Assembly: GCA_007693325.1 (NCBI GenBank) | Contig: REDW01000089.1 | Span: 1-59,853 of the forward strand | Source of the DNA: Spirochaetaceae bacterium | GTDB lineage: Bacteria > Spirochaetota > Spirochaetia > DSM-27196 > PWMO01 | Length of the DNA: 59,853 nucleotides | Direction: 5' to 3' | In this document: positions 53,656 to 57,788 of the stretch, piece by piece | Layout: each line of letters starts with the position of its first letter | How positions within the stretch are numbered: position 1 is the stretch's first letter | Notes under the pieces: model-generated | What the model saw: only the letters and a program-made list of their open reading frames with translations | Told to the model about the DNA's origin: nothing | Database searches by the model: none | Position numbers and translations under genes: made by a program

Positions 53656-55128
53656 CTACGGGATCACGCTCATATCGAGGACCACGATACCCTCGGATCC
53701 TGACACGGCCAGATGCGTGCCATCCAGCCACGCAAGGTCTGTGGGACTGCCGGGATAGGCTGCAACAAACGGCAGCGAGCGGGTGCCGCTGGAGTCCGTA
53801 ATCATAATCAACAGTTCAAACGGCGTGATGGCGGCCATCCTCTGCAAGCCTTCGTCTGCGTGCACAGCGATTCTGTGTATCGGCCGGCCGCGCGTTGCGC
53901 GTATCTGAGACGGCCGGTCTGCACCGGGGTTCCAGTCGGAGCTCAGGGCGCCGGAGAACACGTAGATCCCGTTGGCCGTACCGACAAACAGAGCGCCATC
54001 CGAATCTCCGGGCTGAGATGCAGCCAGAGAATTGATTGCGGACGGTACATAACCGTCAAAAAAGACACCGTTTGAAGCCAGTTCCTTCCACGACGTCCAC
54101 TCGGCATTCAGGTCTGCTGCAGCAATCCGCAACGCCCCCGCGGGGGTGGCCACAAATGCGTAGTCCTCGCCGTCGGTGGCCATAGCCGTCACCGGCACGC
54201 CATTGACCACCGCGCGCATATCGATTGAGAACCAATCGCCAGCCTGATCGCGCCCGCCGATGCGGTGCGCGCTATAGTACAGAATCACCGGGTTGCCGTC
54301 GGCAACCTCGAACTCGATGGCCCCCAGGGTGTCGCCGCGGGGGCTTCCTCTTTCTTCGATACGTTCGTATTGCTCTGACGGCTCAGACCCCTGGTACAGG
54401 CCGTTTGAAGTTGCCAGCAGCAACGGCTCACTTCTGCCGGGTTGGATGGAATGAATCACAAGTCTCTCACCGATAACTTCGTCAACAAGACCAGACCCAG
54501 AACCTGTCAGCTCATTTTCCTGCCAGGTACGCCCGTACACTGTGCCCTGGCCCCCTGCGGCAAACAGCCTCGTGGTTTCTGTATCGACGTAGGCAACGAT
54601 ACCACCTATCGCGGTGCCTGGAAGCGCCCATGACACCTGTGGCCGGCTGTCACGCAGCAGGATGTCTGTTCCAATCTCACGTCCCGCAGCGATGTTGAAG
54701 AGGTCTGATGCGCCCCAGCGCAGTACCTTGAACCCGCCACCGCGCACCGGTTCCCCGGTTGCAACAAAGACGCGATACGGAGCCACATCCGGAATGTCTT
54801 CGATTACCACCTCCGCCCCGGGGCGCGACGGAAAACGCGCGCTCAATGAAAACGCCGTTTGCAGGTACGGCGTAGCGGCCTTTGGATTCAACGGGTAGAA
54901 CCGCTGGTTGTAGCCGGTACCTGCCACAAGGAATACCCGTGCCGCCTCCTCCTCGGCTTGCAGCGTGCCCACTTCAGTGTCAGGTGGCGCCTCAAAGCTC
55001 AAGCGTAATGAACCGGTTGCCACGCCGGGCTGCCAGTAACAGCCGGCCAGCACTACGGTAGTTACCAGCGTCACCACAACGCGCGCCGCATGGCGCGCTG
55101 CTCTCCCCGGACGGTCTTTTGAAATCAT
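53656..55128 (-). CDS. Large lipoprotein, probably beta-propeller-like
   Basis: 490 residues from ATG 55128 (GGAGGA seven bases upstream, overlapping the FecR-gene stop region). Type II signal peptide ending VVLAGC lipidates a Cys near residue 30. Then a beta-rich body with propeller-like blades (VDTETTRLFAAGGQGTVYGR, PLLLATSNGLYQ, GEDYAFVATPAGALRIA, GALFVGTANGIYVFSG, HLAVSGSEGIVVLDM). No enzyme motif. Cotranscribed with the FecR-like gene. Confidence 0.65.
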   Translation of the reverse strand: MISKDRPGRAARHAARVVVTLVTTVVLAGCYWQPGVATGSLRLSFEAPPDTEVGTLQAEEEAARVFLVAGTGYNQRFYPLNPKAATPYLQTAFSLSARFPSRPGAEVVIEDIPDVAPYRVFVATGEPVRGGGFKVLRWGASDLFNIAAGREIGTDILLRDSRPQVSWALPGTAIGGIVAYVDTETTRLFAAGGQGTVYGRTWQENELTGSGSGLVDEVIGERLVIHSIQPGRSEPLLLATSNGLYQGSEPSEQYERIEERGSPRGDTLGAIEFEVADGNPVILYYSAHRIGGRDQAGDWFSIDMRAVVNGVPVTAMATDGEDYAFVATPAGALRIAAADLNAEWTSWKELASNGVFFDGYVPSAINSLAASQPGDSDGALFVGTANGIYVFSGALSSDWNPGADRPSQIRATRGRPIHRIAVHADEGLQRMAAITPFELLIMITDSSGTRSLPFVAAYPGSPTDLAWLDGTHLAVSGSEGIVVLDMSVIP

Positions 55129-55132
55129 ATTC

Positions 55133-55807
55133 TCATCCTCCCCTGGGGGCAAACACCCTCACTCGAACGCTGCCGCTGGCGGTCCGTAGCCGGATCGGCC
55201 GCGTGCGCGTGGTGTTACCGCCGGCGTCCAACGGGAGGGCCGTAATGGTTGTACGACTGAGCAGAACTGTGTCGCCGCGCAGCGGTGGAGTGTACTCCGT
55301 TGTGCGTGACTGGTGGCCGGCGAGCACCGTACGGCGCTGTTCAAGCCGGTTGCTCAGCTCCACACGCCCCTCGTCTACAATCAGCGTTACACCGTCGTAG
55401 CTAAACCGTGTCCCGCGCACCGACGCGGTTGACTGCGTGCTGCGCAGCCGGAAATCCTGACTCAATCCCTCTGGCGTACGGACCTCCGCCGAGACTCTGC
55501 CGACGCGCAGATTCAGCTCAGTGGTTGTGTGGGCATCCGTACGAACAAGAGACTCCAGCGCCACACGCGTCAACGCTGCCACGTGTACCTGGTTGCCGGC
55601 AACATCGAGGGTTGCACGCGAGCCAAAACCGGTGGAGATGTCGGCGCCCACAGGCACTTCGTCCCCAACCGCGAGCGCGTGCCACGGTTGTCCCGGCAGG
55701 CGTGTTTCCACACGTCCGGCGGCAGCCACAACAGTCACCGGTTCGGCAACTACGGGCGTGGCTGTCAGCAAGGCGATGAGTGCACACAAAACGAGCATTC
55801 TTCGCAT
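55133..55807 (-). CDS. FecR-domain periplasmic protein
   Basis: 224 residues, signal peptide about 1-21 (LVLCALIALLTATPVVA). FecR domain about 35-150: WHALAVGDEVPVGADISTGFGSRATLDV, LRVGRVSAEVRTP, FRLRSTQSTASVRGTRFSYDG. In classical FecR this domain relays signals to an anti-sigma system; stand-alone FecR proteins occur in envelope loci. No anti-sigma region or sigma factor is visible here, so signalling is unproven. C-terminal Arg/Thr-rich tail. Confidence 0.8.
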   Translation of the reverse strand: MRRMLVLCALIALLTATPVVAEPVTVVAAAGRVETRLPGQPWHALAVGDEVPVGADISTGFGSRATLDVAGNQVHVAALTRVALESLVRTDAHTTTELNLRVGRVSAEVRTPEGLSQDFRLRSTQSTASVRGTRFSYDGVTLIVDEGRVELSNRLEQRRTVLAGHQSRTTEYTPPLRGDTVLLSRTTITALPLDAGGNTTRTRPIRLRTASGSVRVRVFAPRGG

Positions 55808-55818
55808 ACTGTGTCCTC

Positions 55819-56277
55819 CTAGAAGCTCAGACTCAATTCAGCCTGTAGCGCAAATCGTGGATCCTGCCATTGATTGTCAAGTGGCCCCCCAGAGCTGCTG
55901 TTGGGCAGTAGTACGCCTGCCTGCAGCGCCATGCCCAGATCGTGGAACGGACGATAGACAACCGAGGCGCCCACTTCGGTTCCCAGGTACCTGCCGCCAC
56001 GGTCTACGTTTACTCCCGCCATATCCACCGGCCCACTGTTCAGCGCGCGTAGCAGCAGTGTTGCAGAAATCCCGGTCTGCAATTCACTGAGGCTGGATGG
56101 AGCTGTTACGCTGAACGGCCGCAGGCTGTAGTCAACACCAACGGTTACCAGGTTACCCGGCTGAGCTGCCGCCACAAGTCCTGTCGGTTGGGTCGCTATC
56201 GGCTGGAACTGGGTTACCTTGTCGCTGCGTCCTCCCTCCCTGACCGAACGGGAATCAGGATCGCCACTGGAATACAA
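55819..56277 (-). pseudogene. 3' part of the frameshifted outer-membrane barrel gene
   Basis: 152 residues in the frame after the C5 tract (56280-56284). It contains beta-strand-like segments (NLVTVGVDYSLRPF, GTEVGASVVYRPFHDLGMALQAGV) and ends SLSF, the terminal Phe of a barrel, but has no signal peptide or proper start. It continues the protein of 56214-57152. Could also be read by ribosomal slippage or after phase switching. Confidence 0.7.
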
Positions 56278-57152
56278 TGCCCCCAGCGCCCGGCGCGCGG
56301 TCCGGGAACGTAGTGCTCTAGCCCGATAGAGCCTGCATAGGAGCGGATATCAGCGTAGGCGTAGCGTGCCCCGGTGGCGGACTCTGCATCGGGTACGTAC
56401 GCAAGCACACGGCCAAATTGTACCCCGCCGCTCAGCGCGTAAAACCAGCGCGTTCCCAGTGCGCCATTTACACCCAGCAGCGCGTAGCGTGTATCCAGCA
56501 GGCCTCCGCTGGTCTCATCGAGCACGGTCTCGCCTTCTTCAATAAGATCCGCGGAATCACGCAGGTCCTGCTGAACAACTACCGCCAGCGTGACATCGGT
56601 GCGCGGTAGTGGCTCGACAAACTGCACCTCCCCAATAGCTACCAGGCGCCGCGGCGCCAGACGCACATCGTCATCGCGGTCATCAATTTCATCGAGTTTA
56701 GACATTACTACGGCACTGTTTGGCTTGAGTAATAGACCGGTGTAGACCGCACCGATGCGCGTAACTGCCGGGCGTGAAGACAGCCAGATCTCGACGCCGT
56801 CGCCGCGATGTTCAAAGACCAGTCCGGAGAACTCATCCAGTAAAAACCGGCCCGCGCGGGTCCCGACCGCCAGCCTTTCGCCCACAGCGGATAGCCCCTC
56901 CAGGTACAGCAGATCCAGGTCAGCGACGTAGAGCGGGTCGGTAGTTGCGCGGAAGCTGCCCTGCGATACCATGGAATAGGATGGTCCAAGCGGAGCGTTG
57001 AGCCACAGGGCCAGTAGCCCTTCGGAAAACCAATCGAGGTCGTCATCAGACTCGACCGTTGCAAAGAACGTCGAACTGCCGCCCCAATCGACCGCTTGTA
57101 TCGGAAAGCATAGCCACAACAGCACACAACAGACGCCCAACCGCTTGACCAC
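56214..57152 (-). CDS. 5' part of outer-membrane barrel protein, frameshifted
   Basis: 312 residues. GTG start with GAGG upstream, signal peptide about 1-20 (LGVCCVLLWLCFPIQA), then barrel-like strands. After residue about 290 (VPGPRAGRWG) the frame becomes low-complexity and basic (SGREDAATR) and stops without a terminal aromatic residue. Adding one base to the five-C run at 56280-56284 joins it to the 55819-56277 frame, giving about 444 residues with a proper barrel end. So the gene is broken or phase-variable here. Confidence 0.7.
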   Translation of the reverse strand: MVKRLGVCCVLLWLCFPIQAVDWGGSSTFFATVESDDDLDWFSEGLLALWLNAPLGPSYSMVSQGSFRATTDPLYVADLDLLYLEGLSAVGERLAVGTRAGRFLLDEFSGLVFEHRGDGVEIWLSSRPAVTRIGAVYTGLLLKPNSAVVMSKLDEIDDRDDDVRLAPRRLVAIGEVQFVEPLPRTDVTLAVVVQQDLRDSADLIEEGETVLDETSGGLLDTRYALLGVNGALGTRWFYALSGGVQFGRVLAYVPDAESATGARYAYADIRSYAGSIGLEHYVPGPRAGRWGHCIPVAILIPVRSGREDAATR

Positions 57153-57263: not shown

Positions 57264-57788
57264 CTACGGCCTATAAACGATACCGGTTTGGATCCGGGTA
57301 GCCGTGTTGATCCAGTCTGGACCGCCGAACAACAGGTCCTGCTGTATCTCCAGAAACCAGCTCATGACGGCGTGTACCTCGGCCCGGACTCCCGCCTTGG
57401 CGTAGGGGCCCATCAGGAATCGCGAATCGGATTTGTCAGTTCTGAAGAGAAAAGTGGGTGTGACCCCGGCGCCGAAAAGCCCGGTAATTGTCTCGCCGGG
57501 AAACAGGAAGTTCATCCCAAGTGTAGCGGGAAGCAGTATCCTGGGAACGATGTCACCGTCATCATCTCTGGTAGTACGGATGGCAAAGTCGGCGCCGATC
57601 TGTACTTCCATCTGTTCTGCAGTTTCGATCAGCACGGTGGCCCCGGTGGCCAGAAAGAACTCATCATAACGGAAGAAATTGCCACCCAGCGAGAAACCGT
57701 AGGCTGTCTGAGCCTCGGCCTGCGCAGCACCGCTGAGTGACACCAATCCGGCAACCGCAACTACCAGACATAATCTGCGACGCGTCAT
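57264..57788 (-). CDS. Small outer-membrane barrel protein
   Basis: 174 residues. Signal peptide about 1-27 (LCLVVAVAGLVSLSGAAQA). Alternating beta strands (GFSLGGNFFRYDEFFL, MEVQIGADFAIRTT, LPATLGMNFLFPG, MSWFLEIQQDLLFG) suit an eight-stranded barrel. Ends IVYRP, not aromatic, which is slightly atypical. A TATAGT -10 box (57801-57796) lies seven bases before ATG and no Shine-Dalgarno is present. Confidence 0.6.
   Translation of the reverse strand: MTRRRLCLVVAVAGLVSLSGAAQAEAQTAYGFSLGGNFFRYDEFFLATGATVLIETAEQMEVQIGADFAIRTTRDDDGDIVPRILLPATLGMNFLFPGETITGLFGAGVTPTFLFRTDKSDSRFLMGPYAKAGVRAEVHAVMSWFLEIQQDLLFGGPDWINTATRIQTGIVYRP

Follow-up and report, generated by a model that had tools for sequence, protein, structure and literature searches.

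The frame of a FecR-paired outer-membrane barrel gene in a draft spirochaete genome has probably been disrupted by a small deletion (net 7 nt) rather than switched at its C5 run

Homopolymer phase-variable surface genes are described from Neisseria meningitidis, where a published survey used a minimum homopolymer length of six bases and noted C5/C6 alternation between strains in the gene NMB1760, so that switching at five bases is not impossible (PMC5084427). The locus we describe here resembles these genes in that a surface-protein gene has its frame broken at a run of Cs, but the run is only five bases long and unconserved, and one base fails to restore the geometry of the family. It is also comparable to the recent pseudogenes found amongst frame-disrupted outer-membrane genes, which likewise have intact relatives, one disruption and two halves that are otherwise conserved, and the present case is special only in the net 7-nt size of the change in the assembly. 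The closest likeness is with a set of barrel–FecR gene pairs found in spirochaete genomes, and in particular with the intact orthologue L062, with which the locus shares the order UroD-like gene (upstream), barrel gene, FecR-domain gene and lipoprotein-like gene, a signal peptide, a C-terminal Phe, and 67% amino acid identity over the upstream half (residues 1–289) and 71% over the downstream half. The other members of this family are single frames with a fixed spacing at the junction where our copy is broken, and we class it as a broken copy of the barrel–FecR family and not as a working member. A literature search found no paper describing a barrel–FecR pair of this kind (which is not proof of absence).

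The window, by which we mean the whole stretch of DNA analysed, is contig C68 at its full length of 59,853 bases, and belongs to the draft genome of an uncultured spirochaete, which comprises 3.47 Mb in 150 contigs and has an estimated contamination of 3.46%. On the minus strand, the upstream barrel frame (56214–57152; 312 aa with a GTG start) carries a signal-peptide-like N terminus and most of the barrel, with residues 1–289 matching the family, and the downstream frame (55819–56277, also on the minus strand; 152 aa) is without a signal peptide, provides the C-terminal third of the barrel and ends in LSLSF. Both marks of an outer-membrane β-barrel, the signal peptide and the C-terminal aromatic residue, are therefore present on different frames. 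The break itself (56278–56285, minus strand) comprises the 8 nt that separate R289, the last in-frame family residue, from the residue with which the second frame opens, and holds the run CCCCC that can be read on the plus strand at 56280–56284 (G5 on the coding strand). The run and the two minus-strand frames are present as the initial annotation described them, and its count of 444 residues after the addition of one base was reproduced (444 codons joined from 57152 down to 55822, or 1331 nt). That annotation was also right in saying that the upstream frame has no barrel end, but not in giving it a low-complexity tail, as the final 23 residues, WGHCIPVAILIPVRSGREDAATR, are out-of-frame read-through and are not notably low-complexity.

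The two halves were searched separately against 61 genomes, and relatives of the upstream half were found in 44 of these and relatives of the downstream half in 39; none of the matches to either half contains a stop. Since all 38 distinct homologues read as DNA have the two halves in a single open frame and in the correct order, we regard the two frames as halves of one gene. Aligning homologues over the junction, a check which had been proposed for this site, found none that ends naturally at either frame (the short ones, L070–L076, are cut by contig ends), which supports the earlier view of a single barrel gene lying in two frames. The orthologue L062, which is from the same genus, is one frame of 447 aa in the Spirochaetaceae MAG DLM2.Bin48 (RECP01000040.1; our genome G003), the nearest named relative in the collection, and aligns with the downstream half without gaps. 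The gene order at this locus is the same as in the window except for a small gene at 57264–57788, which has the barrel gene on one side and the UroD-like gene on the other and encodes a second small predicted outer-membrane-like protein of 174 aa; none of the fetched loci, of which the syntenic L062 locus is one, gave a match to this protein. The genome to which the window belongs has four further copies of the barrel gene (on contigs C31, C85, C114 and C148), all of them intact, making five copies in total, and when the genome was searched with a family profile only the window copy was recovered in two pieces (profile positions 3–300 and 298–454). From these comparisons, 55819–57152 is a single gene, the broken member of a five-copy spirochaete family of predicted outer-membrane β-barrels.

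No member of this barrel family could be assigned to a Pfam or NCBIfam family above cut-off in the sequences scanned. There is weak similarity to the outer-membrane barrel family Alginate_exp (PF13372) for four of 22 family members (best E-value 1.6e-5; L062 has an E-value of 0.0084, which is below the cut-off), with no family member shown to pass the curated PF13372 cut-off and no Pfam hit for the window halves. A match to maltoporin was also weak (E-value 0.37), and a structure model built for the orthologue together with the two window halves reached a pLDDT of 27, from an alignment of only three sequences. It should be noted that the positions of strands in the barrel were taken from residue patterns only.

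The association with FecR-domain genes is consistent across the family. A FecR-domain gene is found directly downstream and on the same strand in 42 of the 43 testable family loci across spirochaete genomes, including the window, usually within some tens of bases (the only locus without one is L023), and five of the seven FecR-domain genes in the window's genome are paired with barrel copies. The window FecR gene (PF04773; 55133–55807, minus strand) lies directly downstream of the barrel gene and is intact. Its ribosome-binding site, AGGAGG, shares bases with the TAG stop codon of the barrel gene (window positions 55800–55825), as is also seen in L062, L034, L035 and some other loci, and this overlap suggests that translation of the barrel and FecR genes may be coupled. 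The lipoprotein-like gene which follows (53656–55152, minus strand; 498 aa) is intact, is 64% identical to its counterpart at the L062 locus and has the motif GCYWQP near the N terminus; it is conserved at the L062 and L034 loci (L035 has a similar gene of CYW type) and had no family match in a domain scan. Elsewhere, the locus L081 (G000 C45:4706–5005) has a FecR domain in a 787-aa frame that is unpaired with a barrel of this family.

By comparing junction spacing, a larger deletion that coincides with a run by chance can be distinguished from genuine homopolymer switching. We measured this spacing from residue 283 of the upstream frame to residue 1 of the downstream frame, and found it to be 11 residues (33 nt) in 37 of 38 homologues and 10 residues in the remaining one, as well as 11 residues in all four own-genome paralogues. 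As the window has 26 nt over the same interval, the net change is 7 nt, and the same shortfall is seen at closer range, where the final shared Arg is separated from the first shared Leu by 8 nt in the window and by 15 nt in L062. The initial annotation had explained the break by one base missing from the C run, and this does not agree with a site that is 7 nt short against the family spacing: adding one C restores the frame, but leaves a strand that is shorter by two residues than its family counterparts. Such a strand would be expected if two changes had occurred, namely a natural shortening of the strand by two residues in this lineage and, afterwards, the loss or mis-calling of a single base that may belong to the C5 run. 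The loss of two residues preserves the in/out alternation of the strand, and one added base does yield a continuous frame of 444 codons, but a spacing two residues shorter was found in none of the 38 homologues and none of the four own-genome paralogues, and two events are needed where one suffices. We consider this history unlikely, and a single small deletion would be a simpler account than a two-residue shortening plus a one-base loss. The explanation we prefer is that one gene was probably disrupted by one small deletion, real or artefactual, which removed a net 7 nt, and not by a switch in the C run. The deletion would lie in or beside the C5 run, about two thirds along the barrel gene, and would break the frame within a stretch of otherwise constant length in the family.

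The C5 run is ordinary in the window, where 34 homopolymers of G or C are exactly five bases long and three are six bases long, and there is no C5 or G5 run at the matching site in the G003 orthologue. At five bases it also falls under the six-base cut-off of the meningococcal survey (PMC5084427). No tandem repeat of a longer unit was found at the break, and the possibility that this is a hairpin-prone site was rejected because the local folding of the DNA is unexceptional (z = +1.0).

These results bear on the suggestion that the run acts as a phase-variable switch, in which C5/C6 slippage turns the barrel, and perhaps also its coupled FecR partner, on and off. The frame of a surface-protein gene does change at the run, NMB1760 provides a precedent for alternation between five and six Cs, and the overlap between the FecR ribosome-binding site and the barrel stop means that an off state could affect FecR. 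However, the family spacing is not restored by one base, the run is one of many of equal length and is absent from L062, and no homologue was found in an off state, so we regard the homopolymer switch proposed in the initial annotation as very improbable. More improbable still is the combination of a barrel naturally two residues shorter with a real, reversible C5/C6 switch of the barrel, and of FecR through the stop and ribosome-binding site overlap, in a free-living spirochaete. A programmed ribosomal frameshift that joins the two frames could make use of their overlap, with the G5 run perhaps allowing tRNA re-pairing one base back, but no relative needs a shift, there is no in-frame canonical slippery heptamer, RNA folding downstream of the break is no better than in shuffled sequences (z = 0.05), and joining the frames would still give a product lacking two residues. 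With the relatives being single frames and the RNA folding unremarkable, we rejected this explanation and hold it to be the least probable of those considered.

The age of the break can be judged from the condition of the downstream half, which has no internal stop and no gap over 152 codons. It retains the codon signature of a translated gene, with differences to L062 at codon positions 1/2/3 of 0.22/0.13/0.43, compared to 0.28/0.16/0.59 for the N-terminal half, and dN/dS values against the orthologue (NG86) are about 0.24 for the C-terminal half and about 0.10 for the N-terminal half, with dS being high. An excess of window-lineage changes in the C-terminal half was not consistent across five outgroups, as G005 alone of these gave the window lineage more changes in this half than G003 (15 vs 8). 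We saw no relaxation of constraint that would indicate decay of the downstream half, although the orthologue is only about 70% identical and very recent decay would therefore be invisible in this comparison. Because the downstream half shows no decay, the break appears to be recent, or to be present only in the consensus or assembly.

One branch of our preferred explanation is an assembly or consensus artefact, with the organism's gene intact and bases lost at a GC-rich site or two strains mixed in the contig. The draft nature of the genome, with its 150 contigs and estimated contamination, is in keeping with this, as is the undecayed C-terminal half. We compared the frames of roughly 50 window genes with the syntenic parts of G003, restricting the comparison to non-overlapping ORFs and judging the remaining flags by hand, and the barrel gene was the only clear split between two stop-free frames; on inspection the other flags resembled antisense ORFs or stop-to-stop extensions. 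The absence of any other clearly broken gene nearby can be taken to favour an artefact, but the same comparison means that there are otherwise no clear frame errors across about 60 kb, and DNA folding at the site does not single it out. We found no second assembly of the same species in the genome contigs searched, and no exact overlap at either contig end. The homopolymer errors usual for sequencing platforms are of one base, and a loss of 7 nt is unlike them. Because frame errors are not widespread in the contig and the loss is not of this usual kind, we favour a real deletion over an assembly artefact, though not strongly, and consider the artefact possible but doubtful. Of the three readings originally offered for this site (a switch, decay or an error), a deletion, whether fixed or segregating, and an assembly error both remain, and it is the homopolymer mechanism that is unsupported.

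If the deletion is real, the upstream product would be truncated without the last strands and the terminal Phe and should not assemble into the outer membrane, and the downstream frame would represent a C-terminal piece without a signal peptide, so that the function of this copy of the barrel gene is probably lost. As the AGGAGG of the FecR gene overlaps the barrel stop codon, early termination in the barrel gene may also lower FecR translation. We see this as a fairly ordinary case, in which a small deletion or a slip of the assembly has broken one copy of a multi-copy outer-membrane gene, and it matters little as it stands, being one broken copy out of five in a draft genome. The conserved pairing of this barrel family with FecR-domain genes is a more general lead than the break.
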